Shown: piece by piece, positions 3,272-57,787 of the stretch | Layout: each line of letters opens with the position of its first letter | Numbering within the stretch: the stretch's first letter is position 1 | Assembly (NCBI RefSeq): GCF_016907925.1 | Contig: NZ_JAFBCZ010000008.1 | Span: 124,001 to 188,000 of the forward strand | DNA length: 64,000 nucleotides | Origin: Herpetosiphon giganteus | GTDB lineage: Bacteria > Chloroflexota > Chloroflexia > Chloroflexales > Herpetosiphonaceae | Reading direction: 5' to 3' | Program-made: the position numbers and the translations under genes | Notes under the pieces: model-generated | Seen by the model: the letters and a program-made list of their open reading frames with translations, nothing else | The model's database searches: none | Told to the model about the DNA's origin: nothing

Positions 3272-3523
3272 AAGTATGAAGGATGAATTATGAGGGAAGA
3301 ACGTTAACGCAGAAAATTCATGGTTGTGGCTAAACAAAGGCTCTTGACTGAATGTATCGAGCCAAGAGCCAAAATAGTGTTTCTCTGCGCCTCTGCGTTA
3401 AACATCTGATCCACGAAGCACACAAATATCGCAAAGGGCATGAAGGATGGGATTTCATCCCTCATCCCTCATAATTCATCCCTCATCCCTCATAATTCAT
3501 CCCTCATCCCTCATAATTCATCC
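3272..3523. repeat. Intergenic repeat debris ending in a 21-bp tandem repeat
   Basis: Positions 3454-3516 hold three identical 21-bp units (TTCATCCCTCATCCCTCATAA), and a fourth begins at 3517 and runs into the stop codon of the ABC permease. Upstream, 3390-3440 contains CTCTGCGTTAA and CCACGAAGCACAC, fragments of another repeat family that recurs at 14.5, 21.1, 35.1 and 55.9 kb. No gene is seen here. Confidence 0.85.
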
Positions 3524-35428: not shown

Positions 35429-36262
35429 CTACAAATACTCGAATTGGCTCATGCGTCGCCGCCACTCTTCCTTGATTTGGACAGTGTTTGCGCCGCGACT
35501 GGTGAAGAAATCGAGAATTAAGCGATTGAACTGCGAATTGGTTTCCAAAAACGGAAAGTGGGTGCTGTTTTCCAAGGTCAAGACTTGGTGCTCAATCGCC
35601 GCAGTTTCAAACAGTTGGGCATGATCGCGAGCCACAATTTGGTCGTTGCCGCTATAAATGCCCAAGGTTGGCGTTTTGAGCGTTTCAAGGCTTGAACGCA
35701 AATCAGCAGCCAGCACCGAATCAAAAACCCGCTGAATCACCTCGCCAGCGGTGGCGTTGGTATCTTCGAGCACTTCGCGATAGGTATCGTCATCGATTTT
35801 GATATTTTTGAGCAGCTTGTTCCAGGTTTCAGTTGGGTTGGCCTTGCCCATCAAGCGCGAAAGCGTGCTTGGCTTGACCAAGCCACTCAACGGCTCGCCA
35901 TACACCGGCATATTGGAGGTGATGACTTTGATAAAACTGTTCGGAGCTTGTGCCGCCGCCCGAATTGCGACCATGCCGCCAAGGCCATGGCCAACGAGGT
36001 TGGTGCGAACCATCCCCAATTCGCGCATAAAGGCCAATAATTGCTCAACATAGGCATCGATGTTGTAGGTGCCAATCGCGCGATCCGAATCGCCAAAACC
36101 CCAAAAATCGAGCGCGTAGGTTCGAAAGCGATCCGAGACCATCTCCATGGATGGCATCCAATAGCGCCACGAGCCAAGCCAGCTATGCAAGAAGATAATT
36201 GGCTGACCACGGCCAAAAACTTCATAATGCACAACCCGATTTTCGATAAAAATTGCACTCAT
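35429..36262 (-). CDS. Alpha/beta-hydrolase-fold protein lacking the nucleophile serine
   Basis: A 277-residue protein of the classic lipase/epoxide-hydrolase type: IIFLHSWLGSWRYW (oxyanion region), YALDFWGFGDSDR, YSGNDQIV (acid) and NSTHFPFLE (histidine). The nucleophile elbow, normally GHSLGG, reads GHGLGG here, so the catalytic serine is a glycine. The rest of the triad is kept. It may be inactive and act as a ligand-binding or signalling protein. Its ATG overlaps the response-regulator stop as ATGA, so it is the last gene of a large signalling operon, a setting that recalls RsbQ, the hydrolase that activates a stress phosphatase in Bacillus; RsbQ itself keeps its serine. Confidence 0.85.
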   Translation of the reverse strand: MSAIFIENRVVHYEVFGRGQPIIFLHSWLGSWRYWMPSMEMVSDRFRTYALDFWGFGDSDRAIGTYNIDAYVEQLLAFMRELGMVRTNLVGHGLGGMVAIRAAAQAPNSFIKVITSNMPVYGEPLSGLVKPSTLSRLMGKANPTETWNKLLKNIKIDDDTYREVLEDTNATAGEVIQRVFDSVLAADLRSSLETLKTPTLGIYSGNDQIVARDHAQLFETAAIEHQVLTLENSTHFPFLETNSQFNRLILDFFTSRGANTVQIKEEWRRRMSQFEYL

Positions 36263-36639
36263 GCCTGCGTACTCAACAATTCGCGTACCCGACCAATGAG
36301 GGTTGCTGGAGCATAGGGCTTAAGCATATACTCGGTCGCGCCTGATTCCCAGCCTTCATCAATTTCGGTTTTTTGCCCTTTGGCCGACAGCAAAATAATC
36401 GGCGTGGAAGCAAATTGCGGGTGCTTGCGCAACTCGCGACATGCTTCATAGCCAGTCATCTTTGGCATTTTAATATCAAGAACCAGCAACTCTGGCTCAA
36501 CCTGAAGGGCTAGCTCAACCGCTTCAGCTCCATTATGTGCTTCGATCACCTCAAACCCGCCAAGGCTCCGCAGGCTGAAGCTGGTCATAAACAGCACATC
36601 TGGCTCATCGTCTGCAACGAGAATTTTGATCATGCCCAT
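36259..36639 (-). CDS. Single-domain response regulator (CheY-like)
   Basis: A 126-residue receiver domain with no output domain. The acid pocket is ADDEPD, the phosphorylated aspartate lies in LLVLDIKMPKMTG, and the switch residues are Ser in ILLSAKG and Lys in MLKPYAP. AGGAG lies five bases before ATG 36639. It lies 24 bases after the giant kinase gene, which has no receiver of its own, so it is the likely phosphoryl acceptor. Its stop is coupled to the start of the hydrolase gene. Confidence 0.93.
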   Translation of the reverse strand: MGMIKILVADDEPDVLFMTSFSLRSLGGFEVIEAHNGAEAVELALQVEPELLVLDIKMPKMTGYEACRELRKHPQFASTPIILLSAKGQKTEIDEGWESGATEYMLKPYAPATLIGRVRELLSTQA

Positions 36640-36663: not shown

Positions 36664-39600
36664 CTAGACCTCATCACGTTCGCCTAAGTCGGGGCGGGGC
36701 TGCATTTCTGGCAGCGAGAAGCTAAATGTACTGCCTTCGCCATAAACGCTTTGCACCCACATATCGCCATTATGCAATTCGATAAACGACTTAGCGATTG
36801 AAAGCCCTAAGCCTGTGCCGCCAACCTCATCACGTAGGGGACTATCGGCTCGATAGAATCGTTTGAACAGGCTCTTTTGTTGCTCTGGTGTCAAACCGAC
36901 CCCGGTATCTTTGACATCAAGCTGGATCATGTTGTCCTCGTTGATGAAGGTGCGGATGATCACACCGCCATCAGCGTAGGTATACTTGATCGCATTCGAA
37001 ACCATGTTCGTTAAGACCTGTCCAATCCGCTTACTATCATACTCGATTAATGGCAATGTGTCGTCAAGTTCAAGCTGTAAGGTCATGTTCTTCTTCTTGA
37101 TCTCAAGGTCCCAAGTTGCCACTATATCGCGCACTAATTGGTTGATATTGCTTGGTGCAGTGTTCAAGACAATCTTGCCTGCTTCCAAGCGCCCAATTTC
37201 GAGCAAGTCTTCAACCAAGCCGACCATGCGCATGGCGTTGGTCTTAACAGTTGTAAGCATTTCGCGCTGCGGGTCGGACATTTGACCAACTGCACCGAGC
37301 AAGAGCAAATCGACAAAGCCGCGAATTGGGGTAAGCGGCGTGCGCAGCTCGTGCGAAACGGTCGCGATAAAGTCGCGCTTGGCGCGGTCGGCTTCAACTT
37401 CACGGGTAATATCGCGCAAAACCACCACAACCCCGAAGCGCGAGCTTTCTTCGCCAACCACCGGTGCAAAGTTGGCCGCAATCGATTGGCCAGGCAATTC
37501 GATCATACTGCGATGCACGCCCTCTGAGCGTTGCACAATTTGAATCCCTTCGTGCAAACCAGTGTAGAGCAGCAAGGCCCGACCTTCTTCGTGCAATTCT
37601 TCTTCGTTGCGCGGCGCGGCAATTACTTGCAAGCTGTTATGCATCACTTCCGAGCGCGGAATCCGCAGCACATCTTCGGCAGCTGGATTATACAGAATGA
37701 TCTTCTCGGTTTGGTGGTCGAGCACCATAACCCCTTCCGAAACACTCTGGAGAATAGCAGCGGTCTTGCTGGCTTCTTCGCGTTGTTGCCACATCGCATC
37801 GGAAAGCCGGTCAGCAGAATCATAAACCAAGGTGTAAAGGTCGGCGTTGTGCAAGGCCGAAGAAACTTCGCCACCAATCGTCGAGAGGAAGCGCAAGTGG
37901 TCTTGGGTAAAGAAACCGATTTCGTTGCTATAGAGCATCAGCACCCCTTGAGGTGCGTCGCTCGAAAGCAATGGCACGGCAATTACCGAGCGCACATCGT
38001 CGCCGCGCCCGCTTTGGGCGTTCGTCCAGCGCTCATCCAGCCACACATCGGAGATAACCACGCCTTCGTTATGCTCGATGATCCAGTTGGCTAAGCCTGG
38101 GTGCTGGAAGCGTACCCGAGTTTCAATCGATTTCAAGCCCAATTCTTCGTTGAGCACCGCATGACAGACCAAATCTTTGGATTCGCGGTCGAGCAAGAAG
38201 ACTGCCCCACGACGGACCATCAAGGCCGAAGCCGCCAAATCGAGGGTTCGCAGCAGCAGTTCATCGCGGTCGAGAGTCGTCCCAAGCTCGGTCGCAATGT
38301 TGTAGAGCGCTTCGACCCGTTCTTTTTCGCCCTTGAGTTCTAAGGTTCGTTGATCAACGATTTCTTCAAGCTCAAGGTTGAAGCGGCGAATTTGATCGAA
38401 CAATTGAGCATTGTTGATCGCTTGGCCAATTTGGGTTGCCAAAATCATCAAGCTCGAAATGGTGCGTTCGTTGAAGGTAAATGGTTCGTCCATCCCCACA
38501 AAGACCACGCCACGCAAGCCTTCGCGCAACATTGGCAAGAAGATCGAGCCGCGCATGCCGATGCTATTGACGAATGGCGCTAAAGTGGCATCGGTGCTGG
38601 CATCAAACAATGCCAACGGATGGCCAGAACGCAATGGCCGCAGAATTTCCATGCTGCCAACATCAAGCTCGTTGGCATTTGGTAACTCCAACTCCATATG
38701 GTCGCGGTTGAGCGCCAACGAGTTGGTGATGGTGTAGCCATCGCCCGAGACCACGATAATCCCGCCAAAATCTGCCCGCGACATTTCAATTGCGCTCGAC
38801 GAGCTGATTGCCATCAATTCGTCGATTTCCAAGGTACTGGCCAAGGAAACGCTGGTTTCTGAAAGCGTCGAAAGTTCGCGCACGCTTTGGCGTGATTCCG
38901 AGAAGAGGCGGGCATTTTCCAAGGCTTGGGCTGCTTGCGAGGCAATCGTCAGCAACAATTGCACCAATTCGTCGCTATAAGCATTGTCTTGCTCATAGCT
39001 CTGAACCGTCATAACGCCTACGACTTTATCCGCTGCAATCAACGGAATGCCCAACCACGAGCGCGCCATCTCGCCAACTTGGTCGACCTTCATTTCGGCC
39101 ATGCGTTCGGCGATGTGTGGGCCTTGCAGCAACAGCGGTTGACGCTTGCGAATTACGTATTCGGTGAGGCCATTCACGCCGCGCTGTGGCAAGACGTTGC
39201 CCGTCGTGCCATGCTCGTAATAGAGCGGGAAGGTCACTTCTTTGTTGCGCTCATCGTACAGCGCCAAGTAGAAGTTTTCAGTATTGACCAACTTGCCAGT
39301 TTGTTCGTAAATCACGCGCAGCAAGTCGTCAAAGCGCACCGTCGAACTTAATGCTTGACCGATGTTATTCAACGTATTCAAGCGTTGAATCGATTGTTCG
39401 CGCTCGGAGAACAAGCGCGCATTGGCAATCGCCGCGCCAGCTTGAGCCGCAACCGTGGTCACAAAGCTCATATCATATTCAGAGAAGGCATATTCCTCGT
39501 AGCTCTGAATATTGATAATCCCAATCACATCGACCCCAACCACAATTGGCACAACCAAATACGATTGTTCAAGCTCGCCGCGGTCGCCAATGCGCATGGC

Positions 39601-42600
39601 GCTTGCTTCGGTCGTTAATTGGGTTTGGGCATCGCGATATTCGTTAGCTTCTTCCGATGTGTTCAGCAACAGCGGCTGGCGATGTTCAATCACCCAGGCT
39701 GGCACCCCAACCGACAAACGGCGCGTGCCGATCGTAACTGGCTCGCCACGATCGTGGGCCTCGCGGAACTCCATCGAGTGGGTTTGCGGATCGTACAAAC
39801 CAATGAAGGCCGTGCTCACATCGACAATTTCACCCAAGCCAGCATACAAGCGCTCTAAGATTTCATCCAAACTAATCGTCGATGTAATCCCTTGGCTGAT
39901 GCGGTTGAGCGTATCCAACTCGCGAATCCGGCGTTCGCGTTCGGTAAACAGCATCGCTTTTTGGACTGCTGCCGACGATTGGTTGGCCAATGATTCAAGG
40001 AATTGAAGCTGGCCACGGCTAAATGTGTTGGCCTGCGGGCTTTGAATCACAATCACACCCAACGGCTGATTGATATTCATGCCATAGGTTTGGCTACCCA
40101 TCGTAATCGACGCGGCGATTACCGATTCTGGCTCGATGGCATCGGGAATGCCTTCCAGCCGAGGTGAGTAGCGTTCGTTCTGCAAATCATGCTTGCTGTT
40201 GAACATCAATGGGCGTTGCTCAAACAACATCGTTTTAAGGAAGTTGTTGCTCAGCACATGTGAAATCAACGAATACTGCTGGCCATTGCTAAACCCAACC
40301 GTGGTCGAAATCATATTGGTTGGAGCATCGTAGAACACGATATAGGCGTTGTCGGTATTGTAGATTTCGGTCAAGCCCTTCAGAATCGAGCTAGCCAATT
40401 CTTCTGGCGAGAGCGTTGCCGTCATCGATTGACTGATCGACGACAAAATTGCCGCTTCGGTTACTTGGCGTTCGCGCTCTGCAAATAAGCGCGCATTTTC
40501 CAAGGCGATTGCGGTTTGGCTGGCAACTGCCTGCAAGAATTGAATGGTTTCGGTGCTAAATGCGCGTGGCAGTGGGCTTTGAATGGTGATAACACCCAAA
40601 ACCATATCGCCAAGCATAATCGGAATCCCGACCCACGAAGCCATCGGCGTATCGTGGCCTAGCAAGAAGCGCGAGGCGTTGGCGGTTTCTTCAATCGAGT
40701 TCAACACAATCGTGCGTCGCCCGCGAATAACCCGACTCAGCACGCCTTCGGCCAGCGCTTGGGGTTCGAGCCGTTCCTCGCGACCGCCGTTCATCACCAC
40801 AGGGAAAGTCAAAATGTTATGATCGCTGTCGTAGAGCACGATGAATGAGTGGCGCGTATCAACCACGCTGCTCAAACGTAGGTGCAATTGGCGCAGCAAG
40901 GTTTGCGGATCAAGCGTCGAGGTGATCGCTTGGGTCACATCATTTAATGCTTGCAGCACCGTAATTTGGCGTTCGCGCTCGACAAACAGACGCGTGTTTT
41001 CAATCGCAATTGCCGCTTGGTCGGCCAAAGCGCTCAAGAGCGCGGTATCATCCTCGTTGAAGGCAGCGCCTTCGCCAGACATCACACTGAGCACACCCAA
41101 CAATTCATTGCGATAGACAATCGGCACACCCATAAAGACCGAGAGGCCATGGTCGCGATTGAATTCGACATGTTGCGAGATGATTGGCGATTGACCATCG
41201 GTTGCACTGGTCGTCAATGGCTTGCGCAATTCGGCGACCGTCCCAACCAAGCCCTCGCCACGTTTGACCCGCAGGCTTTGGACAAAATCGGTTGGCAAGC
41301 CTAACGATGCTACTGGCTGAAGCTCTTCGTCGCCAGTAAACAAAATCACGGTTTCGATTTTGAGTTGGCGGGCCACCAAGCGCACCAAGGTATCCAACAC
41401 TTGAGTTGGCTCGTGAATCGAGCTGAGTGCTTGGCCTGCTTCGAGCAACACCGACAATTCGCCAACTTTGCGGCTCAGCACTTGGGCTTGGCGCTCAGTT
41501 TCAGCAAACAGACGGGCGTTTTCCAAGCCTTGCGAAATTTGATTGGCGATCGTTTGGCAGGTTTCAGCATCGCGTTGGCTGAAGTTGCGACCTTCGACCA
41601 TATGATCAAGCCCAATCGAGCCAACCACTTCGCCCTTGACGATCAACGGCACCAACATCAATGATTGAATGCCGAGTTGCTTCGTCGTTTCGCGAAACGA
41701 TTCGGTCATTTCATGCTCAAGCGGATTGTTGATCACCAATGGGCGGCGATGGCGCTGCATCCAAGGAATCGTGCCGTTATTGGCAACCGGAACCTCGATG
41801 CTGAGATCGCCTTTGGGGAACTCAGCCCGCGTGTAGCCAACTTGCGCTTCGTAATCGAAAATCACCAAGCGCGCTTGCGAAGCATCGGTCACTTGGGCCA
41901 TTTCTTCGACCGCCAAATCGTAGAGCACTTGGGTATCGAGGGTCGAGGCCGTCAAATCAGAAACGTGATTGATCAGCGCCAAACGCTCAGCTTCGGTTGC
42001 TAGTTGATCCAAACCATCTTGGGTTTGGCTATACAACAGCACGTTTTGCATCCCCAAGGTCACCTGATAGGCCACGTTGATCAGCAATTGCAAATCGCGT
42101 TCGTCGAACATTGCTTGCTTGTAGTGTTGCAGCAGCAAAATCCCGAGCGGTTCGTCGTTGTTGGTGAGCAATGGCACGCCCATCAACGATTGCGAAAGCA
42201 CCGTGTCGGCAGAGGCAACCCGTGGATGAATATCCGGGTAGGCCTTCATTTCCTCGTCAACCGACTTGAACAGCAACGGCTGGCGATGCTCCAGAATCCA
42301 CGCGGTCAGCGAGTGCGGCGTAATTGGCGTGGCTTTGGGATAATTGATAATCATGCCACGATCAATCACGAAGCTATGAATCCGTACCGTCAGCTCGCTA
42401 TCGAAGACGCTGAGATTGAAAATATCAATCGGCAAGAACTCACGCAACACGTTATACACGCCCTGCATCAATTCATCGGCGTTCAAGGTCGAGCTGGTTA
42501 CTTGACCAACCCGCCGAATCACATCAAGCTCTTTGATTTGGCGATCGCGTTCGTTGAACAGCTGAACTTTTTGGATGCCCAAGCTGATGTGCGAAACCAC

Positions 42601-45600
42601 GTTGGTCAAGAAGGCCACCGTGCGTTGATCAAAGGCGTTTGGCTGATAATCCTGCAACGAGAGCATCCCAATCGGTGCGCCGTCGCGAGCAATAATCGGC
42701 ACGCCAACCCACGAACGCGGCGATTTGTTCTTGCCCTGAATTGGGTTGGCCATGGGCTGAACGCCCTTTTGCTCCAACTCAGCTTTATTGGTCACATCGG
42801 CCAAAATCAATGGCGCACGATGTTGCACGACCCAGGCGCTCGGGCTGCCAACTCGTGGCTTGCCGCGCGGCGTGCGTTCAGCGGGCACACCTTCTTGCAC
42901 CGCATAGCCATCGATCACTTGGTCGTGCTCAGCATCGTAGATCATCGTATAGAAGACTGGGGCTGAGGTAACTTCTTGCAAGTATTCAGCAGTCAAACCC
43001 AGCATTTCATTCAGATCAAGCGAGGCGCTCATCAACTGACCAATTTGGCTAATCGCATCCAACTCGCGAATTTGGCGTTCGCGGTCGCCGAACAGGCGCG
43101 CATTTTGCACCGCCAAGGCCACTTGGCTAGCGATCGTTTGTAGCAACTCAGCGTCGCGTTCGCTATAGACATTTGGCTCGTAATGCTGAACTGAGAGCAT
43201 CCCCACAGCAGTATCATCACGAATTTTTAGCGGCACGCCAATCCACGAACGCACCCATTTATCGGGATTGCCAAAGCGTTTGATTGTATATTTGCCCTCA
43301 ATTTCTTGGGGCATATCGCGGAAGACCAACGGCTCCAGTGAATTAACGACGTGGGCCGAAGGCGAATTAGGCAAGAGCTTTTCACGTTGTTCTTCAATAA
43401 AGAACTTACCTTCTTCAACATTCACCCGCAGCACAATCTCGCCCAGCATTGGGTCGTAGACGAAGCTATAGAAAACATTTAAATCTAAGATTGTGCGCAA
43501 CGACTCGTACACACCTTGGAGAATTTTCACAAAGTCAAGCGTTGAGTTGGTTAAGCTACCGATTTTATTGATCAGCGCCAACTCACCCAAGCGCGATTGA
43601 CTATCGCCATATAAGCGCGAATTTTCAATTGCCACTGCCAATTGATTAGCAATTGTATCCAGCAAGGCTGCATCACGTTCGCCATAGCGCCCAGCTTCAT
43701 TATGTTGCAGCGAAAGCACCCCGCGCACCGTGCCATCGCCCAAGAGCAGCGGCACGCCAATCCACGAGCGTGGCACATCGGTGCTATTACCCGCTTCTGA
43801 ACGCGGTGGGCTATTGCCATCGTTGGCGAGCAACTCGGCGGTCATGTCGTTGAAGAACAATGTTTCGCGTTGTTTGATGATTCTAGCCATCAACGAGTTT
43901 TCGTTAATTGGCCCATTGACGACATCGGGCATAAAGTGTTCGTCATCAATCGCCAACGATTCGACCACACTATTGCGTTCGGTATCGAATACTGCCAAAT
44001 AGTAGGCCCGAATTGGTAGATTTTCGCGCAACACGTTATAGACTTCACGCGCCAGATCATTGAATTTGAGACTGGTGGTGGCAGCGCGGCTAATGCGGTT
44101 GATAATCGCCAGCTCTGCAATTTGGCGCGAACGTTGATCAAACAAGCGCGCATTTTCAATTGCAATTGCCGCTTGGTTGGCAAAAATTTCCAGCGTTTCG
44201 ACGGTGCGGCGGGTTGGCGCTTCATGGGTAAACGGATCATCGACCGTCATAATCCCAATTAATTCGCGCTCGGTTGAATACAATGGCACCAGCAGTTGAT
44301 CGCCATCGTGCCAAGCACTAGAATCGTTGCCCCGAGTTATATAGTAGGCGCGCCCAATCCGATATTGCGAGTCGAGCAACGGGTGAAGGGTTTCAATTGC
44401 AATCTCTTCATTGCGCAATTGCTCCAAATCGGAGAGCGCCATCCCCGCACCAGCAACCGTGCGCATAATCGTTGGATGGGCTTGATCAATTAGATTGAAC
44501 AAGACCATGCGATAGCCAGCGGCTTCGGTAACGCTAAATGCAATTTGATCAAGCAGATTGCCAAGCTCCATATCGGCGCGCAGCGCGTTGCCAATCTCCA
44601 ACACTTCATTCAAAAGGCTAGCGCGTTGTTGCAACAATTCACGTTGCTTAACTTGCTCTTCGTAGTGTTGGGCATTGCCAATTGCCAAGGCAGCTTGGTC
44701 GGAAACAGCACGCACAAAATCGAGGGCCGCGTGATCGAAGGCATAGCCTTTGGTATCGCCAGCAATAATTGCCCCAGCTACCCGATTTTCATACAAAATT
44801 GGAGCCATGAGCAACGAACGAACTTCGCCCCACTCGACAGTATCGTCGAGCGCGGTCACATCGTCATAAATCAAGGCCTCGGCGCGTTGCATTGGCTCGC
44901 TCAGCAAGCCATTATTGAGCAATGGCAAGGCCAAAAAGCCAGCTTCTTCAGCAGAGCCATAGCCATTTTGGGCAATCACGTGCAGCGATTCATCGTCGTT
45001 GTAGAGCACGACAATCCCATAGCCACAACCAGTTGCTTGGCTAATTTCGGTCAACATTGCTGGCAACAATTGCTCAAGCTGCAAGGTCGAGGTTAGCTCG
45101 CGGCTAATCCGTTGCAGCGCCAAGAGTTCGCGCACCCGTTCGCGCAGCACTTCATCGGTAGCCTCGTAGCGTTGAACATTGCGCAAGGCTTGGGCTGCTT
45201 GAGAAGCAATAATATTCAGCAAGCGCTCATCTTCAGCATCAAAACGCCCAATTGTGCCAGAACCAAGCTCCAGCGTCCCAATCAACTGATCGCCGATCAG
45301 CATTGGCACACCCAAGAATGAGCGGAAGGCCAGGCCACTTGAGGTTTCGTGTGGTCGAATGGGCTTAACAATCTTCTGGCGCTGCAAATCGTCGATCCGC
45401 AAAGTTGAGCGATGACGGGCCAACCAGCCAGTTAAGCCCTGATCGATGCCATACGAGCCGCCCTCGCTGGCGTAATGTTGGCGGGTGCGTGGCGTGGCAT
45501 ATTGGCTATTCAGCACTTGGGTTTGCGGATCGTAGACGCAAATTTCAAGATCGATATTATCAAAGAGCTGGGCAACGCTTTCGCCGATGCTTTCAAGCGC

Positions 45601-47112
45601 AACTTGCAGGCTTACGCCGGAGGTCAATTTAGCGCTCAGCGATTGCAGCACCGAAAGTTCGGAGTTACGGCGACGCTCATCATTTAACAAGCGGGTATTG
45701 CCAATTGCCGTAGCTGCTTGGGCGGCCAAGGTTTGGGCCAAAGTAATTTCGCCGGGGTTGAAGCTGCGCACACGGCTGGTAGTGGTACACAAGAGAATGC
45801 CAATTACCCGCTCCTTGAGCAGCATTGGCAGCCCCAAGGCACTGCGAATTCCACGCGCTTTGAGCCATGAGCGTTGGGCATTAATCCGTGGATCAGTGTC
45901 GATGTCAACAACTGAGACTGGTTGCTGGGTATCAAAAGCAATTTTTAAAATCGATTCGGGCCGCAACTCATAGGTTGCCCCAATCGACAAATCGAGCGAG
46001 TTTGCTGCATCGTCATCGGTAGCTTGGGCCACCAACTCACAGATTTTGCGCCGATCGTCCCAGAGCAATAACAAACATTGCTCGACCCCAAGGGCCAGCA
46101 ATACATTTTCAGTCAAGCGATTGAGAATATGGGTCAGATCAAGCGAGGAGCCAACTGTCAAGCTATTTTCATACAGCAAGTACAATTCGCGTTGGCGTTG
46201 ACGTTGGGCATCGAAGAGCTTGGCGGTGCGCATTGCCAGCGATGCTTGAGCTGCAAACGATTCAAGCAAGGCCAAATCGGCGTTTTGAAAACCGCGCTCA
46301 GGCTCGATATGCACCAGCACCAACACCCCAATAATCGTCTCGTCGGCGCGTAATGGCGCGGCCATCACCGCAGTGAAGTTAATGCCTTCGGGCAGATTAT
46401 CGTATTGTTCTTTGGCTTGGCCATAATTATTGACCAGCATCGGCTTGCCACTTTGGGCCACCGTGCCAGCCACGCCCTTGCCAACCTGAATCCGTGCGCC
46501 ATTCCAATTGGCGGGAAACTGCACAACTTGGCGCAGCTCCAAGTATTGCTGGTTGGAATCGGTCATGTAGACCCCGCCACCAGCAGCGCCAAGCAATTCG
46601 GTAGCTTGAGTAACCAAGGTTTGCAAAAATTCGTCTGCATTCAGCTGTTGCGCCAAGCCCTGCAACGATTCAGTCATTGCGGCAACGGTGCGCTCGCGGC
46701 GGGCAAACTCCTCTTGCAAGGCCACGCCCTGCCACAACGTTGTTAATTGAGCCAGCAACACCGTTAATGGCTCTGGATCTAAGGTAACTGGCGCAACCAA
46801 AACGCCTGGCACTTCGGCGGTGCCAATCGCAAACAGCTGCCAACCTTCTGGCAGCCGAACCTCACTTCCACCATTTAAAACCCGAGCAGGCAACAACCGA
46901 TTGGTTGCGCGTTTATTCATGCCCCATGCGGCCAACAACGAACGTTGCTGACCTAGGCGGAGGATCGCCCCTTGAGCAAACAAGCCGCTTTGTTTGAGCA
47001 AATCGGCACAGCGCTGCGCGAACGTTGGCAAATCAGGCAATTGCTCACGGGCGAGGTGAGCAATGCCTGTTAACACGTGCCAAATTGCGGTGGAAGGAGG
47101 AGAGATTTTCAT
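36664..47112 (-). CDS. Giant cytoplasmic histidine kinase with about 17 GAF domains, a PAS domain and a kinase core
   Basis: A single uninterrupted frame of 10.4 kb encodes 3,482 residues. After a degenerate GAF-like start (1-130), about 17 GAF domains follow at a spacing of roughly 175 residues. Each ends in an AIENARLF-type helix and a linker such as ERERQIRELDAI, and most contain a SWIGVPL-type strand. The linkers form coiled coils that would stack the domains. A PAS domain (about 3115-3235) precedes HisKA (SHELRTPLTPIRG, His3254) and HATPase (N box TNMVSNAIKYT, G boxes DTGVGLT and GGTGLGLSIA). No membrane helix is seen. GAF domains bind cyclic nucleotides, bilins, heme or other small ligands; no bilin cysteine or cGMP NKXnFX3DE motif was obvious. 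The ribosome-binding site before ATG 47112 is weak. Confidence 0.95.
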   Translation of the reverse strand: MKISPPSTAIWHVLTGIAHLAREQLPDLPTFAQRCADLLKQSGLFAQGAILRLGQQRSLLAAWGMNKRATNRLLPARVLNGGSEVRLPEGWQLFAIGTAEVPGVLVAPVTLDPEPLTVLLAQLTTLWQGVALQEEFARRERTVAAMTESLQGLAQQLNADEFLQTLVTQATELLGAAGGGVYMTDSNQQYLELRQVVQFPANWNGARIQVGKGVAGTVAQSGKPMLVNNYGQAKEQYDNLPEGINFTAVMAAPLRADETIIGVLVLVHIEPERGFQNADLALLESFAAQASLAMRTAKLFDAQRQRQRELYLLYENSLTVGSSLDLTHILNRLTENVLLALGVEQCLLLLWDDRRKICELVAQATDDDAANSLDLSIGATYELRPESILKIAFDTQQPVSVVDIDTDPRINAQRSWLKARGIRSALGLPMLLKERVIGILLCTTTSRVRSFNPGEITLAQTLAAQAATAIGNTRLLNDERRRNSELSVLQSLSAKLTSGVSLQVALESIGESVAQLFDNIDLEICVYDPQTQVLNSQYATPRTRQHYASEGGSYGIDQGLTGWLARHRSTLRIDDLQRQKIVKPIRPHETSSGLAFRSFLGVPMLIGDQLIGTLELGSGTIGRFDAEDERLLNIIASQAAQALRNVQRYEATDEVLRERVRELLALQRISRELTSTLQLEQLLPAMLTEISQATGCGYGIVVLYNDDESLHVIAQNGYGSAEEAGFLALPLLNNGLLSEPMQRAEALIYDDVTALDDTVEWGEVRSLLMAPILYENRVAGAIIAGDTKGYAFDHAALDFVRAVSDQAALAIGNAQHYEEQVKQRELLQQRASLLNEVLEIGNALRADMELGNLLDQIAFSVTEAAGYRMVLFNLIDQAHPTIMRTVAGAGMALSDLEQLRNEEIAIETLHPLLDSQYRIGRAYYITRGNDSSAWHDGDQLLVPLYSTERELIGIMTVDDPFTHEAPTRRTVETLEIFANQAAIAIENARLFDQRSRQIAELAIINRISRAATTSLKFNDLAREVYNVLRENLPIRAYYLAVFDTERNSVVESLAIDDEHFMPDVVNGPINENSLMARIIKQRETLFFNDMTAELLANDGNSPPRSEAGNSTDVPRSWIGVPLLLGDGTVRGVLSLQHNEAGRYGERDAALLDTIANQLAVAIENSRLYGDSQSRLGELALINKIGSLTNSTLDFVKILQGVYESLRTILDLNVFYSFVYDPMLGEIVLRVNVEEGKFFIEEQREKLLPNSPSAHVVNSLEPLVFRDMPQEIEGKYTIKRFGNPDKWVRSWIGVPLKIRDDTAVGMLSVQHYEPNVYSERDAELLQTIASQVALAVQNARLFGDRERQIRELDAISQIGQLMSASLDLNEMLGLTAEYLQEVTSAPVFYTMIYDAEHDQVIDGYAVQEGVPAERTPRGKPRVGSPSAWVVQHRAPLILADVTNKAELEQKGVQPMANPIQGKNKSPRSWVGVPIIARDGAPIGMLSLQDYQPNAFDQRTVAFLTNVVSHISLGIQKVQLFNERDRQIKELDVIRRVGQVTSSTLNADELMQGVYNVLREFLPIDIFNLSVFDSELTVRIHSFVIDRGMIINYPKATPITPHSLTAWILEHRQPLLFKSVDEEMKAYPDIHPRVASADTVLSQSLMGVPLLTNNDEPLGILLLQHYKQAMFDERDLQLLINVAYQVTLGMQNVLLYSQTQDGLDQLATEAERLALINHVSDLTASTLDTQVLYDLAVEEMAQVTDASQARLVIFDYEAQVGYTRAEFPKGDLSIEVPVANNGTIPWMQRHRRPLVINNPLEHEMTESFRETTKQLGIQSLMLVPLIVKGEVVGSIGLDHMVEGRNFSQRDAETCQTIANQISQGLENARLFAETERQAQVLSRKVGELSVLLEAGQALSSIHEPTQVLDTLVRLVARQLKIETVILFTGDEELQPVASLGLPTDFVQSLRVKRGEGLVGTVAELRKPLTTSATDGQSPIISQHVEFNRDHGLSVFMGVPIVYRNELLGVLSVMSGEGAAFNEDDTALLSALADQAAIAIENTRLFVERERQITVLQALNDVTQAITSTLDPQTLLRQLHLRLSSVVDTRHSFIVLYDSDHNILTFPVVMNGGREERLEPQALAEGVLSRVIRGRRTIVLNSIEETANASRFLLGHDTPMASWVGIPIMLGDMVLGVITIQSPLPRAFSTETIQFLQAVASQTAIALENARLFAERERQVTEAAILSSISQSMTATLSPEELASSILKGLTEIYNTDNAYIVFYDAPTNMISTTVGFSNGQQYSLISHVLSNNFLKTMLFEQRPLMFNSKHDLQNERYSPRLEGIPDAIEPESVIAASITMGSQTYGMNINQPLGVIVIQSPQANTFSRGQLQFLESLANQSSAAVQKAMLFTERERRIRELDTLNRISQGITSTISLDEILERLYAGLGEIVDVSTAFIGLYDPQTHSMEFREAHDRGEPVTIGTRRLSVGVPAWVIEHRQPLLLNTSEEANEYRDAQTQLTTEASAMRIGDRGELEQSYLVVPIVVGVDVIGIINIQSYEEYAFSEYDMSFVTTVAAQAGAAIANARLFSEREQSIQRLNTLNNIGQALSSTVRFDDLLRVIYEQTGKLVNTENFYLALYDERNKEVTFPLYYEHGTTGNVLPQRGVNGLTEYVIRKRQPLLLQGPHIAERMAEMKVDQVGEMARSWLGIPLIAADKVVGVMTVQSYEQDNAYSDELVQLLLTIASQAAQALENARLFSESRQSVRELSTLSETSVSLASTLEIDELMAISSSSAIEMSRADFGGIIVVSGDGYTITNSLALNRDHMELELPNANELDVGSMEILRPLRSGHPLALFDASTDATLAPFVNSIGMRGSIFLPMLREGLRGVVFVGMDEPFTFNERTISSLMILATQIGQAINNAQLFDQIRRFNLELEEIVDQRTLELKGEKERVEALYNIATELGTTLDRDELLLRTLDLAASALMVRRGAVFLLDRESKDLVCHAVLNEELGLKSIETRVRFQHPGLANWIIEHNEGVVISDVWLDERWTNAQSGRGDDVRSVIAVPLLSSDAPQGVLMLYSNEIGFFTQDHLRFLSTIGGEVSSALHNADLYTLVYDSADRLSDAMWQQREEASKTAAILQSVSEGVMVLDHQTEKIILYNPAAEDVLRIPRSEVMHNSLQVIAAPRNEEELHEEGRALLLYTGLHEGIQIVQRSEGVHRSMIELPGQSIAANFAPVVGEESSRFGVVVVLRDITREVEADRAKRDFIATVSHELRTPLTPIRGFVDLLLLGAVGQMSDPQREMLTTVKTNAMRMVGLVEDLLEIGRLEAGKIVLNTAPSNINQLVRDIVATWDLEIKKKNMTLQLELDDTLPLIEYDSKRIGQVLTNMVSNAIKYTYADGGVIIRTFINEDNMIQLDVKDTGVGLTPEQQKSLFKRFYRADSPLRDEVGGTGLGLSIAKSFIELHNGDMWVQSVYGEGSTFSFSLPEMQPRPDLGERDEV

Positions 47113-47152: not shown

Positions 47153-48088
47153 TTAGCGGCCAAATTTCACAGCGCTACGAACTGAACCTTCTTGCAGGTT
47201 GGGCAATGGGCGCACACTTTCAGCCGTTTCGCTGAGTTCACGGATATCGTAGAATGGCCCATCGGCGCTATCGAGCACCCCAATTGAAACCGTCATGAGT
47301 GGCTCTTGGCGTTCAGTACCATCGGCGTTTTTGGCCAAAATATAGCCACGTTTGCGGTCGGGATAGCTGTAGTGCAAGCCAATTTCTTGGTCAAAGCGTT
47401 CGGCAATCCGCTCCATAATCGCTTTAGCCCGCTCAGGCATCGAGGTAATCAAGAAATCCGGCCCAGTCACTAACTGGCCGATGAATTCCTCTTGGCCACC
47501 CAACTCGCTAACAACTTCGTTGATCAACAATGCGCCAAATTTGAGCACATCTTCACCAACGACCGAGCCATAGACTTGGGTAAAGGTATCGAAGCCATTG
47601 ATATGGACGGTTGCGAGCGTCCAGACTTCGGCGGAGAGCAAGCGCCGAAGCTCTTCGTTAATCAATTCGGCGGTTGGCAAGCCAGTGACTGGGTGAGTGC
47701 GGCTTTTTTCGCGGGCCAAGGCCAAGTTATTGCGCACCCGCATATGCACTTCTTCAATATCGAACGGCTTAACAATATAATCATTGGCTTGGACGACCCC
47801 AAGCCCTTCAGCTTTATCGCCGCGTTCGCCACGGGCAGTTAAGAAAATGATTGGAATATGCTTTGTACGGGCATTGGCGCGCAGTGCTTTTCCAATATCA
47901 TACCCGGTCATATCGGGCAAATTCACATCAAGCAAGGCCAAATGCGGCGGCGTGCGTTTCACAAGATCGAGCGCTACCTGCCCGCGCATCGCGGTCATCA
48001 CTTCATAACCTTGCGAGGTGAAGTAAATTTTGAGCAAGCCAGAGATATCGGCTTGGTCTTCGACGACTAAGATGCGTTCTTTGCTCAC
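47153..48088 (-). CDS. Response regulator: receiver domain plus degenerate GGDEF-like domain
   Basis: An N-terminal receiver (about 1-125: VVEDQAD, LALLDVNLPDMTG, FLTARG, IVKPF) is followed by a GGDEF-fold domain that opens HPVTGLPTAELINEEL. The catalytic loop GGDEF is replaced by TGPDF, so cyclic-di-GMP synthesis is unlikely, and the domain may serve as a nucleotide sensor or protein contact. Start choice: the frame opens at ATG 48103, but GGAGG lies inside that start, five bases before GTG 48088, which is therefore the likely start (311 residues). It lies 40 bases upstream of the giant kinase gene, and the two probably form one phosphorelay. Confidence 0.88.
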   Translation of the reverse strand: MSKERILVVEDQADISGLLKIYFTSQGYEVMTAMRGQVALDLVKRTPPHLALLDVNLPDMTGYDIGKALRANARTKHIPIIFLTARGERGDKAEGLGVVQANDYIVKPFDIEEVHMRVRNNLALAREKSRTHPVTGLPTAELINEELRRLLSAEVWTLATVHINGFDTFTQVYGSVVGEDVLKFGALLINEVVSELGGQEEFIGQLVTGPDFLITSMPERAKAIMERIAERFDQEIGLHYSYPDRKRGYILAKNADGTERQEPLMTVSIGVLDSADGPFYDIRELSETAESVRPLPNLQEGSVRSAVKFGR

Positions 48089-48126
48089 AGTATCCTCCAT
48101 CATCGCACGCCGCGTGCGATGCAGCG

Positions 48127-49425
48127 TTAATCACGGAATTGTTCTGCTGGGTACTCATCGGCGACGCGATCGCCCACAGGAATGCGTTGAACGCGGGGAT
48201 CGCGGTCGGGATAGAAAACTGGTGGGCGGGTGTAAATACCACTCGAAACATTTTTAGGAATGACAGAATGATCATCGCCATAAATCAAGACTGTGCCTGA
48301 TTCAATGTTGCGGGCTGGATAAATGACAAAGCCTGAGCCAATTTTACAATTATGGCCAATGGCCGAGCCGATGACTGGCAGGCCAACTTCTTCCAAGCGC
48401 CCGCGATGGAGCGTCTTGATTGGCTTGCCCAGCAAATCGAAATCGGTACAGGTATTGCCAGCCCCGATAAAGGTATTACGGCCAACGACGCATAACTGCA
48501 AACAGGTATTTTGCGCCACCATCGAATTTTCCATCAAGACAGTCATGAACAAGGCGGCCCGGAATGGCAAATAACAACGGTCACTGACCACGCTCAGCAT
48601 CACTTGCGAGCCTTGCATGATGGTGACGTTATTACCGATCAAGCTATTCGTAATCACCACTCCAGCGCCAATATTCACGTTGTTACCGATTTCAGTTGGG
48701 CCTTGAATAATCGCCGATGGGTCGATTGAGCAGTTCTTGCCAATCTTGACCACTGGTGATGATGACAAAAAGTGCTTGCGTTCGATAAACGAGCGAAAGC
48801 CAATCTTCAACTTCAAACGCCAACTGTTGGCAACCTCTTGCTCCAGCTTCCGACCCCATGCAAACACCCCGAGGGGAGAGTTTGTCATGAAAATATGAAC
48901 CCAGCTTTCGATTGAACAAAACGCACGAATTGGCACCTGGAATACCAAATCCCCTTGGTTGGGCGCCATATAGCTTGGAATATGGTAGTAGCCCATCTCC
49001 ATGGCATTGGTATCGATTACCAGCGGTTGTGGATTCGGGACAACGCCGCGAGGGAAATAGTAGAGGTCGGCAATATAATGGTTACCATGCTTGCGAATAC
49101 CCTCTTGTAATCGCAAAGCATGGGCCGTAATCATCGCATCATCAGCAGCAAAAGCCACTTGGCAAGGTTGCCCAGTGGCGCGTGCCTCAGCGATAAACGT
49201 CTCAATGAAATCGCGGTTGAAATAGAGATTATCTTTATGCACCAAGAGTTCATCACTACTTGGTGAAATTTCAGACCAATCGTCTACTTCCGCAACACTT
49301 TGGCAGTGGCGTGCAAGCAGATCACGGTGTAGCAGCCACAGCGGCTTATTGAGAATCCGCAAATCACGCGCTGGTTCTCCAAAGGGAGCGATAAGCGTAG
49401 GATCGCGGAGAACAATCCGTTTCAT
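48127..49425 (-). CDS. Left-handed beta-helix (hexapeptide) protein, GlmU-like nucleotidyltransferase relative
   Basis: A 432-residue protein. The N-terminal 200 residues recall a decayed sugar-nucleotidyltransferase of the alternative GlmU type (PARDLRILNKPLWLLHRD), with no clear pyrophosphorylase LXGGXGTR motif. From about 235 on, hexapeptide turns repeat: IGKNCSIDPSAIIQGPTEIG, IGNNVNIGAGVVITNSLIG, IGNNVTIMQGSQV, IGHNCKIGSGFVI. Such coils carry acyltransferase sites in relatives. ATG 49425 begins the conserved part; the open extension to 49566 is rejected. Its place between a V4R protein and two-component genes suggests a regulatory or envelope role, not proven. Confidence 0.7.
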   Translation of the reverse strand: MKRIVLRDPTLIAPFGEPARDLRILNKPLWLLHRDLLARHCQSVAEVDDWSEISPSSDELLVHKDNLYFNRDFIETFIAEARATGQPCQVAFAADDAMITAHALRLQEGIRKHGNHYIADLYYFPRGVVPNPQPLVIDTNAMEMGYYHIPSYMAPNQGDLVFQVPIRAFCSIESWVHIFMTNSPLGVFAWGRKLEQEVANSWRLKLKIGFRSFIERKHFLSSSPVVKIGKNCSIDPSAIIQGPTEIGNNVNIGAGVVITNSLIGNNVTIMQGSQVMLSVVSDRCYLPFRAALFMTVLMENSMVAQNTCLQLCVVGRNTFIGAGNTCTDFDLLGKPIKTLHRGRLEEVGLPVIGSAIGHNCKIGSGFVIYPARNIESGTVLIYGDDHSVIPKNVSSGIYTRPPVFYPDRDPRVQRIPVGDRVADEYPAEQFRD

Positions 49426-49588
49426 AACGAGTCCCTGCAGCTCAAGACGTTTCGACCACCGAAACCAACTGGGATCTGCTGGTACTATACTCGGATTTTC
49501 ACGAATATGGGCAGCAAACAGATTACAGTTGGATGTCTGTGAGCGTCCTGCTCGTCGCCAGCGCACAGATTGGCAGACTTACATCGTC

Positions 49589-50239
49589 CTAATCTATTGG
49601 CTCCTTGTCAATGGCAAACGCACAGTATGGGTCGCCATTGCGTGGACTTGCAACTTGTTCGACCTTGAAGTTATGACCGCCGGTCACCCACGTCAAGGCT
49701 TCTTCGATAATCCCTTGCGCCAAATAGAAGATCGGGGTGCTATTGCCGCGTCCCCAGAACACTGGTGATTTATCAATGTAATAGAGGAAACGACCCTTTT
49801 GGTCTTCTACCCGACTCGGCTGATCGCTGAAGCGGTCGAATGTTTGAGCTACCGCATTCAAAACGATCTTCATTTTCATGGTCATGGGCATCAGTTTGAG
49901 CGCAAGGTCGGCCATCCCCAATAGTGGGCCAAATTCTTTCAACCCAAGACTAAACGCATACCGTCCGGCCCGCAGTTCCATCCCACGCGCACCCCGTGGA
50001 CCGAACATTGTTTCGGTGGCTTCGCTGATCGTTGCGAGATCAAAGAACGAAAATTCGCGTTTTAAGTCGTTGGGCGGATAGTTATTGACGAGGTGTTTCA
50101 TCCCTGCCATATTTAGCAGCGCATTGACCCCCGTGCGGCCCATAACATCTTCCAAACTGAGAAGATACAATCGTGCGATTTTATTGGGGTAGAACAGGCG
50201 CTCAAGCTCGTCAGACGTATTGGTGCGCTCTTCTGCCAT
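49589..50239 (-). CDS. V4R-domain protein (4-vinyl reductase/hydrocarbon-binding family)
   Basis: A 216-residue soluble protein of the V4R type, known from BchJ-linked proteins and from small-ligand-binding domains of transcription factors such as XylR and DmpR. Features are helical MGRTGVNALLNMAGM, GPRGARGMELRAGRYAF, FLYYIDKSPVFWGR and a late conserved turn GDPYCAFAIDKEP. It probably binds a hydrophobic ligand. AAGGAG lies seven bases before ATG 50239, and a near-consensus promoter lies upstream, so it is the first gene of the long signalling operon. The family call is by pattern. Confidence 0.7.
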   Translation of the reverse strand: MAEERTNTSDELERLFYPNKIARLYLLSLEDVMGRTGVNALLNMAGMKHLVNNYPPNDLKREFSFFDLATISEATETMFGPRGARGMELRAGRYAFSLGLKEFGPLLGMADLALKLMPMTMKMKIVLNAVAQTFDRFSDQPSRVEDQKGRFLYYIDKSPVFWGRGNSTPIFYLAQGIIEEALTWVTGGHNFKVEQVASPRNGDPYCAFAIDKEPID

Positions 50240-50409: not shown

Positions 50410-53268
50410 TCAAGCTAACACGGTTTGAAGGAAACGGCCAGTCCATGAAGCTTGATTCATAGCGACTACTTCCGGCGGCCCAGCCACAACTAGCTGGCCA
50501 CCAGTGTCTCCACCTTCAGGCCCTAAATCGATCACCCAATCGGCGGTCTTGATCACGTCAAGGTGATGTTCAATCACCACAACGCTGTTTCCTGTATCAA
50601 CCAAGCGTTGCACGATCGCAATTAACCGTTCAACATCTGTCCAATAGAGCCCTGTTGTTGGTTCATCAAGAATATACAGGGTTCGGCCTGTCCCGCGACG
50701 TGCTAGCTCTGCCGCTAGTTTTACCCGCTGCGCTTCGCCCCCCGAAAGAGTCGCCGCTGGCTGGCCTAGGGTCAAATAGCTTAACCCAACCTCAACCAAA
50801 CTCTCAAGTTTCCGCGCCAAGGCCGGAATGCGCTCGAAAACGCTTAAGGCTTGGCCAACTGTCATGGCGAGTACATCAGCAATGGTATACCCACGATAGC
50901 GAATATCAAGGGTTTCCCGATTATAACGCAACCCAGCGCATGCGTCGCAGGTCACCGCTAAATCTGGTAAAAATTGCATGGCAATCGTTACCACACCTTC
51001 GCCACGACATTGCTCGCAGCGCCCGCCCTTAACATTAAAGGAAAATCGGCTGGCTCCATAGCCCCGCACTTTGGCTTCAGCTGTCCCAGCAAACAATTGA
51101 CGCAATGCGTCGAAAATACCGGTGTAGGTCGCAGGATTGGAACGCGCTGAACGCCCAAGCGGCGTTTGATCAACCGCAATCACTTTATCAAGTTGCTCAT
51201 AGCCTTCAAGGCTGCGATGCCGACCCACTGCTAGCCGGCTACCATGCAATTCGTTGGCCAGCCGTGGGTAGAGAATCTCATGAATAAAGCTCGATTTTCC
51301 CGAGCCAGAAACGCCAGTAATCGCCACCAAACAGCCTAAAGGAATCGTTAGATCAAGATCTTTGAGATTATGCTGCTTGGCTCCACGTAGCAGTAGTGTA
51401 GCATGGGTTGGCTTTCGCCGTGTTTGAGGCACACCAAGCTGACGTTGGCCAACTAAATAGTGGCCAGTTTGCGAATTGGGCTGGGCCATCAGTTGTTCAA
51501 CTGTGCCGCTCGCAATAATATACCCACCTTGCAAGCCTGCCGTCGGCCCAACTTCAACCACCCAATCCGCCGCCGCAATTATCGCTGGGTCATGCTCAAC
51601 CACCAAAACCGAATTCCCAAGGTCGCGCAGTTGTAATAATGTTTGTAATAAGCGCGCTGTATCGCGTGGATGCAAACCAATCGACGGCTCATCCAACACA
51701 TACAAAACCCCTGATAATCCGGCTCCAATATGGGTGGCTAACTGAATCCGTTGCGCTTCACCACCAGATAAGCTATCAGCAGTGCGCGCCAAACTCAAAT
51801 ATTCTAACCCAACATCACGCAAAAACTGTAAGCGCAACACCAGTTCACGCACAATCGGCGCTGCAATTTGCTGATCGCGCTCGCGCCGCAATTTGTTAGG
51901 CAACGCACTGAGCCACGCAAAACATGCCTCAATCGATAAGCTCGTGATTTGATCAATCGCCCGCCCTTGTAGTGTAACTGCCCGCGCCTCTGGTCGCAAG
52001 CGCGAACCTTCGCATGCAGAGCAAACAGTGCCTTGGCGATAGTGGCTCAGGCCTTCGCGCTCTTGTTCGCTTGCCTGTTGCCAATGTTGGCGCAACCAAC
52101 CAAGCAATCCAGGCCAAGCCTCCAATTGGCGGCGCAAGGTTTTGCTTAAATGCAATTGCTCAGCGCTTGGCAGCGTGCCTTCGAGCCATAAATCTAACGC
52201 CCAGCCCGCCATTGTGTCAACAGGCTGCTCGAGATCGATGGCCAAAGCGTCTGCTACAGCCTGAATTGTTTCTTCCCAATATTGTTGGTTGGTTGTAGTG
52301 CTAGTGCGCAGTGGGTTCAAAAGCAATTCGCCAAGAGTTTGCGCTGCGTAGGATTGTAACAGGTTTCGATCAAAATCATCAACTGTGCCTAAACCATCGC
52401 AAACTGGGCACGCGCCATGCGGGCTGTTAAATGAAAAAATGCGTGGCTCCAACGCTCCGCTAGCCAATGGCCCATGCTCAGGGCAGGCTGCATGCTCGCT
52501 ATAGCGCATCTGCTGACCATCGATCGGCTGAACCAGCAATACGCCAGCACCTGTTTTGAGCGCAGTTTCAACCGAATCGCTCACTCGCACCCGATCAGGA
52601 TGGTCGTTCAAACTGATGGCTTCACTGTGGCGAATAATCAGACGATCAATCACCACCTCGATGCTATGCACCGCATGATGATCTAAATCGATCTGATCAT
52701 CAAGGTCAATAATCGCCCCATCGACCCGCACCCGCACAAAGCCCGCCCGCCGCGTTTGCTCCAAAACCGTCGCATGCGAGCCAATTTCCTCGTTGACCAA
52801 CGGCGCTAAAATCATCAAGCGCGTGCCATCGGGATAGCTCAAAATCTGATCGACGATTTGGCTGGCGGTTTGCTGCTCAATCGAGCGGCCACAAATTGGG
52901 CAATGCGGCTTGCCAATTCGCGCATACAGCAAGCGCAAATGATCGTAAATTTCGGTGATTGTGCCAACAGTTGAGCGCGGCGAACGATTGATTGTTTGCT
53001 GGGCAACCGCAATCGCTGGCGCTAAACCGCGAATGCTATCAACTTCGGGCCGAGGCAATTGGCCCAAAAATTGGCGCGCATAGCTCGAAAGCGATTCAAC
53101 ATAGCGACGCTGGCCTTCAGCATAAATCGTATCAAACGCTAAGGTCGATTTGCCCGCTCCCGATGGTCCGGTAAAAACCACCAATTTGCCTTTGGGAATG
53201 GCTAAATCGATATTTTTAAGATTATGCTGGCGTGCGCCAACAATCTGAATTTGGTCAATTTCAGCCAT
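50410..53268 (-). CDS. uvrA: UvrA excinuclease ATPase subunit
   Basis: UvrA finds DNA damage and loads UvrB in nucleotide excision repair. All marks are present across 952 residues: Walker [10 protein letters not shown] and GVSGSGKSS, signatures [10 protein letters not shown] and [10 protein letters not shown], and Walker [12 protein letters not shown] and [11 protein letters not shown]. The second normally reads GLHFXD, so the Tyr-Trp is unusual. Zinc cysteines lie in [31 protein letters not shown] and CDACAG. ATG 53268 has AAAGGAA about six bases upstream; the frame extends to 53442 into the P450 gene and is rejected there. It follows the P450 gene by 11 bases; uvrB and uvrC are not in the window. 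Confidence 0.95.
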
Positions 53269-53279
53269 AACCGTTTCCT

Positions 53280-54569: not shown

Positions 54570-54572
54570 GGT

Positions 54573-55046
54573 TTAGCGCATAAACTTCAACCCAAAACGC
54601 CCAACCAAACCCAAGCCAATCAAAGCCACACCCAGCCATAACCACGTATTTGAGGTTGATGGGCTGCTGGTGACCGGCAAAGCAACCGGAGCGGGTTTGA
54701 CCACACCGGTATCAGGCAAGGTTACTGGTGGCATTGGGGTAGCGGTAGCCGGCACGAGCGTTGCGCTTGGCAAGGCGGTTGCAGTTGGCGCAATCGCGGT
54801 TGGTTCAAGCGTTGCAGTTGGCTCAAGCGTTGGCGCAATTGCGGTTGGTTCAGCAGTAACCACCGGAACTGCGGTTGCAGGTAAACGAGTTGCCGTGGGT
54901 AAGGGCGTTTCTGTCGGCAGCGGAGTAGGCGTTAAGGTTGGACGAGGTGGTTGAGCCAAGCTACTTGCAGCTGCTGGCTGGAGCAATACCAAACTGAGCA
55001 CTCCGAGCATAACGACAGCAAGCAAGCCAGAGAAACGACGAAACAT
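54573..55046 (-). CDS. Pro/Thr-rich exported protein with LPDTG-like sequence and C-terminal anchor
   Basis: A 157-residue protein. A signal peptide (MFRRFSG, hydrophobic core, AAASS) is followed by about 70 residues of Pro, Thr, Ala and Glu repeats (PTPLPTETPLPTATRLP, LEPTATLEPTA), a likely extended stalk. LPDTG occurs before a 20-residue spacer and a last hydrophobic helix (WLWLGVALIGLGLVG) with a basic tail. That order recalls sortase substrates, but the distance from LPDTG to the helix is long and no sortase is in the window. ATG 55046 has GAGAGG six bases upstream; ATG 55082 is rejected. Confidence 0.7.
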   Translation of the reverse strand: MFRRFSGLLAVVMLGVLSLVLLQPAAASSLAQPPRPTLTPTPLPTETPLPTATRLPATAVPVVTAEPTAIAPTLEPTATLEPTAIAPTATALPSATLVPATATPMPPVTLPDTGVVKPAPVALPVTSSPSTSNTWLWLGVALIGLGLVGRFGLKFMR

Positions 55047-55186
55047 AAGCAACCTCTCGACAAAACTGATTTGATGATTCAATTGAACGTTTCGGCGGGC
55101 ATAGCAGCATTATAGCAGCATGCATGCCGAAAACCTATCCATCTTGGGCTGTTTTGCAAAGAGCCTAGCCACGGCGAATTCTTGCA

Positions 55187-57733: not shown

Positions 57734-57787
57734 CAATGAAACCTCCTAAAAAGCCATAGAAAAATCTACCACCGCACTGCCGAAACC

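Follow-up and report, generated by a model that had tools for sequence, protein, structure and literature searches.

A giant multi-GAF sensor kinase within a compact operon

The window analysed here, a stretch of 64,000 nucleotides from the genome of Herpetosiphon giganteus, contains a tightly packed minus-strand gene run in which a very large sensor histidine kinase is preceded by three partners and followed by two. The genes are, in order, a V4R-like protein, a beta-helix transferase-like protein, a regulator joining a receiver (Rec) to a GGDEF-like domain, the giant kinase, a stand-alone receiver and an alpha/beta hydrolase; all coordinates given for these genes and their domains refer to the minus strand. 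The kinase frame (36664..47112) is single and open, begins with ATG and encodes 3,482 aa, and was characterized using Pfam and an HMM built from the kinase’s own units. Pfam identified 17 GAF_2 stretches (whole-protein E 1.9e-238) and 16 GAF matches, plus one PAS (residues 3118–3235), one HisKA (3244–3312) and one HATPase_c domain (3359–3469), while the own-unit HMM delimited 17 units (domain E ≤4e-15 for each) with a start-to-start spacing of 166–186 residues. A preliminary description of this DNA had proposed a 3,482-residue frame with about 17 GAF domains, spaced regularly at ~175 residues and ending in a single PAS-HisKA-HATPase core, all of which is borne out here, with the 17 GAF_2 stretches exceeding its threshold of at least ten GAF-scoring units.

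Reading from the N-terminus, the HMM placed GAF units 1 to 5 at 46222..46650, 45694..46149, 45175..45621, 44671..45090 and 44149..44577, respectively. Units 6–9 (42040..44076) form an expanded block with ~30% mutual identity, recognized from the HMM, a domain tree and pairwise identities, as was a second related block comprising units 12–15 (38911..40920, 28.5% mutual identity); units 10 (41515..41946) and 11 (40993..41421) lie between the two blocks and unit 16 (38407..38838) follows the second. A 42-residue linker with a signalling-helix (S-helix) signature of the QRT/ERT type (38281..38406), found in the linker survey described below and defined as in PMC1592074, leads to unit 17 (37843..38280), which is the most constrained unit in comparison with H. 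aurantiacus. The output part consists of the PAS (37408..37761), HisKA (37177..37383) and HATPase_c (36706..37038) domains, and motif inspection indicated that the core motifs are complete in sequence, with the phospho-acceptor His3254 in SHELRTPL and intact N, G1 and G2 boxes. The N-terminal region (residues 1–154, 46651..47112) may be a degenerate 18th GAF, as it matched the GAF profile weakly (hhalign 45%); its AlphaFold model (pLDDT 48) was too low in confidence to inform, and a comparison of this region plus unit 1 with sliding two-GAF windows aligned poorly and was discarded. As previously suggested, neither a membrane helix nor a receiver was evident in the chain: the most hydrophobic 19-mers of the kinase fall within GAF beta-strands, and receivers are instead encoded by the adjoining genes on either side.

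The GAF units of the kinase displayed no ligand motif that we recognized. None of the 17 contains the cyclic-nucleotide motif NKFDE, hence cyclic-nucleotide-binding GAFs of the PDE/CyaB2 type were rejected. The entire kinase holds 8 cysteines, and 12 of the 17 units have none (cf. the chromophore-binding cysteine of phytochrome and cyanobacteriochrome GAF domains).

Partner genes of the kinase

The gene directly upstream of the kinase (47153..48103) encodes a 316 aa response regulator with an intact receiver, whose Asp59 is invariant across 16 relatives, and a C-terminal domain that falls below the Pfam GGDEF cut-off (E 0.0027). Its family profile matches PleD in two stretches and, like PleD-type Rec-GGDEF regulators, it couples a receiver to a C-terminal domain; it differs from them in having one receiver and a degenerate signature, the window regulator reading TGPDF at the GGDEF/GGEEF active site. 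Among relatives the signature is mostly GPDF-like within the order and GGDDF/GGDNF elsewhere. Due to this degeneracy, no known effector activity follows for the regulator.

Further upstream are the left-handed beta-helix (hexapeptide repeat) transferase-like protein (479 aa, 48127..49566) and the V4R/BchJ-like protein (216 aa, 49589..50239). The latter assignment is a weak one, with scores below the curated thresholds for both V4R (14.4 bits, cut-off 31) and BchJ (16.9 bits, cut-off 74.3) and a single, marginal match of its profile to solved structures (MJ1460, E 0.11). Relatives of this protein outside the family carry a conserved CPxCW...C...C cysteine set, most of which is replaced in Herpetosiphon and in another genus of the family, represented by G008 (SPVFW), which looks like the loss of a site for a metal or cofactor. 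Downstream of the kinase, the stand-alone receiver (126 aa, 36259..36639) overlaps by 4 bp the start of the gene for the alpha/beta hydrolase (277 aa, 35429..36262), a conserved operon member. In two checked relatives outside the order, a PigE/acyl-ACP-reductase-like gene lies between the hexapeptide gene and the regulator; together with the operon enzymes it hints at lipid or envelope metabolism, which we regard as a lead only. These genes (L116:2503-3594 and L121:2548-3657, in Chloroflexota outside the order) are thioester-reductase-like and belong to the PigE N-terminal/acyl-ACP reductase family, and their Herpetosiphon relative lies on another contig (C3). The surroundings of the operon include a UvrA-like gene directly upstream (50410-53442), found at the same place in several other genomes of the order, as well as cytochrome P450 and AMP-binding (acyl-CoA synthetase-like) genes (53280-57736). 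The window also encodes a hybrid histidine kinase of 1,064 aa (58165-61359; GAF, PAS, HisKA, HATPase and two receivers), and an equally long frame occurs near the locus in other Herpetosiphon genomes.

Distribution of the locus across Chloroflexota

Every Herpetosiphon genome examined has the locus, as do most of the order members sampled. Orthologues of the kinase were retrieved from all nine genomes searched in the family, and matches at E ≤1e-110 from 65 of 82 genomes of the order, the weakest of which may be other GAF kinases. At the thresholds used, none of the kinase, regulator and hexapeptide genes was matched in one genus of family f3 within the order (G045, G092, G102 and others); genomes of this genus measure ~3 Mb and are poor in GAF domains. 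Relatives of the regulator were found in 71 of 400 sampled genomes, reaching other Chloroflexota classes, and at all 21 loci fetched outside the order a multi-GAF kinase of 1,649–3,264 aa adjoins the regulator (at one locus, L119, the adjoining frame has 2 GAFs and is followed by a 13-GAF kinase). In almost every locus fetched, spanning many Chloroflexota families, the regulator gene immediately precedes the kinase gene, and the sole fetched copy without a multi-GAF neighbour (L129) is a second copy from a member of the order whose full locus lies at another place. The hydrolase, hexapeptide protein and stand-alone receiver accompany the kinase in most of the 21 loci outside the order. In families f2 and f3 of the order, no stand-alone receiver was detected next to the kinase, which the hydrolase follows directly. 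Between 5 and 17 GAF domains are present per kinase among relatives. The count is 17 in both Herpetosiphon and one related genus; kinases of f2 mostly have 13, those of f3 have 9, 13 or 16, those of f4 have 7 or 9, and those elsewhere have 5–14. No kinase found here exceeds the Herpetosiphon number, which is simply the upper limit of this range.

Linker lengths between GAF domains are quantised

Linker lengths, taken between fixed profile positions, amount to 24, 24, 28, 31, 24, 24, 24, 24, 31, 31, 24, 24, 24, 24, 24 and 42 residues for the 16 linkers of the kinase. Across 57 related sequences, 531 of 554 measurable linkers (which are not independent, as the relatives share ancestry) have 24, 28, 31, 42 or 49 residues, i.e., 24 plus 0, 4, 7, 18 or 25, each close to a whole number of helical turns. 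In these sequences the GAF units themselves come in 43 distinct lengths, and the contrast with the five linker lengths implies that insertions and deletions are tolerated inside the domains and not between them. This contrast, along with the agreement among paralogues that are only 21% identical, is a stronger argument than the raw linker count. The order of lengths is conserved as well, with the array opening 24-24-28-31 recurring in distant relatives and the last linker having 42 or 49 residues (a difference of exactly 7) in nearly all of them. The 24-residue linkers are amphipathic and nearly proline-free.

As a control we considered GAF–GAF linkers from other proteins of the genome, where 16 of the 30 listed also have 24 residues, the others having 23, 25, 28, 30, 31, 35, 41 or 42 residues or, in two cases, being very long. 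Since the controls likewise favour 24, the rule is general and the giant kinase an extreme case, and the idea that quantisation is peculiar to it was rejected. Heptad-stepped linkers are also known from PadC diguanylate cyclases (PMC9587094), whose linker lengths, as in the giant kinase, shift in heptad-like steps; compared with these and with S-helix proteins, the giant kinase maintains the rule over up to 16 consecutive linkers per chain and across paralogous and orthologous modules. The preliminary description took the likeness of the linkers as a sign of duplication. The likeness itself holds, but on these comparisons it reflects a strict coiled-coil length constraint, shared with other GAF proteins, and not recent copying. 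Judged from sequence, then, the conserved feature among relatives is the linker spacing and not the module number.

A signalling-helix signature and a two-GAF structure model

An [EDQ]RT signature was found in 51 of 55 last linkers, compared with 7 of 488 other linkers. The 42-residue linker between units 16 and 17 reads QRT in the giant kinase and ERT in most relatives, and by its sequence it has the attributes of an S-helix, namely a coiled coil of ~40 residues, the published ERT signature and a position between sensor and output, ahead of the output part (PMC1592074). Anantharaman et al. (2006, PMC1592074) proposed that the S-helix keeps the domain downstream of it from being constitutively active.

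In an AlphaFold model of units 14–15 (mean pLDDT 82), an uninterrupted 46-residue helix links both GAFs, and the nearest solved fold is the GAF-A/B tandem of PDE5A (TM 0.70). The model was run as a monomer from an alignment of 16 of the kinase’s own domain pairs (pTM 0.62), and the GAF–GAF geometry is for this reason tentative. As regards the tandem-GAF proteins that form parallel dimers (PDE5/PDE6, PDE2A and CyaB2), the two-module monomer model resembles the PDE5A tandem and its long connecting helix; unlike these proteins, the giant kinase lacks NKFDE and has many modules and a kinase output. Based on the 46-residue helix and the PDE5A-like fold, we infer that the protein forms a parallel dimeric rod whose C-terminal end is the kinase, although the parallel arrangement should be read with the antiparallel inter-GAF coils of some prokaryotic proteins in mind (PMC1592074). 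The joining helix of the model, the PDE5A tandem fold and the quantised linkers are all consistent with a rod. Of the earlier suggestion of a rod whose length matters, the rod itself thus fits, whereas a role for absolute length finds no support, as relatives have 5–17 modules.

The kinase also resembles HisKA-type multi-sensor kinases with one to few GAFs, sharing their catalytic core, core-adjoining PAS, GAF inputs and preferred linker length. It differs from them by its 17 GAFs (1–7 in the other sampled GAF proteins of the genome), and by being part of an orthologous locus that extends across the phylum and in which the succession of linker lengths is conserved.

Proposed mechanism and selection on individual GAF units

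The kinase is probably a soluble, dimeric, multi-input rod, predicted to phosphorylate the neighbouring receivers. Its chain comprises 17 GAFs joined by 16 length-stepped linkers, the one between units 16 and 17 bearing the signalling-helix signature, and ends in GAF17-PAS-HisKA-HATPase; a role as a sensor kinase is supported by the intact kinase boxes and by the phylum-conserved Rec-GGDEF-like gene directly upstream. Two such chains would run parallel, with an almost unbroken two-stranded helix underlying each GAF pair in the manner of the PDE5/PDE6 tandems; dimerisation and the direction of signalling are deduced from homologues. Binding of a ligand or partner at any module may tilt this helix or shift its register, and the change would travel down the rod to the signalling helix, a putative gate that holds the kinase off. 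GAF17-PAS would relay it to the DHp bundle, whereupon His3254 would be autophosphorylated and the phosphate passed to the Rec-GGDEF-like regulator next to the kinase, the stand-alone receiver or both. Modules could be gained or lost with helix phase kept, because each brings its own in-register linker.

Selection was assessed against H. aurantiacus, where dN/dS amounted to 0.005–0.12 across all 17 GAF units and to 0.030 for the pooled linkers, which are under stronger purifying selection than nearly all units. The low values in every unit imply that all 17 are held by purifying selection. This bears on the possibility that most GAFs act as a spacer or scaffold of ligand-free dimeric beads, with sensing left to the conserved units (3–5, 10, 11, 14, 15 and 17). 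Such a role would fit the variable unit number among relatives (5–17), the restriction of order-wide conservation to some positions, the lack of NKFDE and scarcity of cysteines noted above, and the far stronger constraint on GAF17 than on the other units (dN 0.003 vs H. aurantiacus). A pure spacer should nevertheless tolerate more change than is seen in the lineage-specific units (dN/dS 0.04–0.11), yet fold constraint alone could suffice to explain these values; on the whole we regard a spacer role as a serious but rather unlikely explanation, and retain the multi-input rod kinase as our working model.

History of the GAF array

A domain tree of 129 GAF units was used to trace the array. The tree was obtained by a quick, non-bootstrapped search and contains long branches; its same-position pairs are robust, its deeper branching is not. 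Every one of the 17 units is placed beside the G008 unit of the same position, and ~10 positions (1–5, 10, 11, 14, 15 and 17) have counterparts in other families of the order, from which it follows that most of the array is old. The mean identity between GAF units of the kinase is 21%; it reaches 30% within units 6–9 and 28.5% within units 12–15, compared with 20.6% for the remaining pairs, and outside the two blocks adjacent units are no closer to one another (19.5% vs 20.6%). At the sequence level, tandem duplication is consequently supported just for these blocks. Unit 5 clusters with units from other kinases of the same genome (support 100), which indicates that exchange with other proteins has occurred too. 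The original proposal of growth by tandem duplication is therefore supported for units 6–9 and 12–15 only, while unit 5 follows the opposite outcome envisaged for such a tree, clustering with other proteins.

Two further proteins of the genome touch on this history. A 1,530 aa protein on contig C36 (L130:1927-6516) has 7 GAFs joined by linkers of 35, 24, 24, 24, 24 and 24 residues, and three of its units cluster together near units 6–9 of the giant kinase. A 732 aa protein on contig C13 (L138:2072-4267) has three GAFs whose linkers, of 28 and 31 residues, match in length those joining units 3-4-5, and its third GAF groups with unit 5. In one genus of the family (G001, L076) the orthologue of the kinase occupies at least two frames instead of one, through either sequencing error or decay, and has its own duplication of unit 14.

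A recent, runaway and selectively near-neutral duplication of one GAF unit in Herpetosiphon could account for the closeness within units 6–9 and within units 12–15, and the separate recent duplication of unit 14 in G001 illustrates that such events occur; it is nonetheless improbable, given the positional counterparts of all 17 units in another genus and of ~10 positions order-wide, the mean inter-unit identity of 21%, and dN/dS that is low throughout. A uniform recent tandem expansion was rejected for most units by the domain tree and pairwise identities. The size of the kinase has varied in evolution through gain and loss of modules, with the helix spacing staying in step. No frame break, the other weakness foreseen in the preliminary description, was encountered: the frame is intact and equally long in five further Herpetosiphon genomes; in H. 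geysericola, H. llansteffanensis and H. aurantiacus DSM 785 (a complete genome) residues 1–3482 are matched at 99, 99 and 94% identity, respectively. A fused or mis-assembled frame has a negligible chance of being the explanation and was rejected, considering the same length in all six Herpetosiphon genomes examined, one of them complete, and the conserved operon position.

Implications

The domain types, the linker rule, the S-helix and the tandem-GAF fold are already known, whereas the number of modules per chain, the phylum-wide pattern of linker lengths and the operon appear undescribed in the literature searched. Our search was limited and included few subscription papers, and within it we found no description of the locus, of Herpetosiphon or Chloroflexus GAF kinases, or of giant GAF arrays. 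A broader reading, which we offer tentatively and hold to be possible more than probable, is that this phylum-wide locus encodes a parallel rod comprising as many as 17 GAF pairs, which would sum many intracellular signals and pass them to a degenerate-GGDEF regulator and to associated lipid- or envelope-related enzymes, modules being freely added or removed as long as the coiled coil stays in register. How conformational signals travel through coiled-coil linkers, and over what range, is an open question for which most studies use one or two sensor domains. A single orthologous family with 5–17 in-register GAFs ahead of the same output core makes the dependence of transmission on distance and linker phase directly testable, and its conserved operon points to an apparently undescribed regulatory system.
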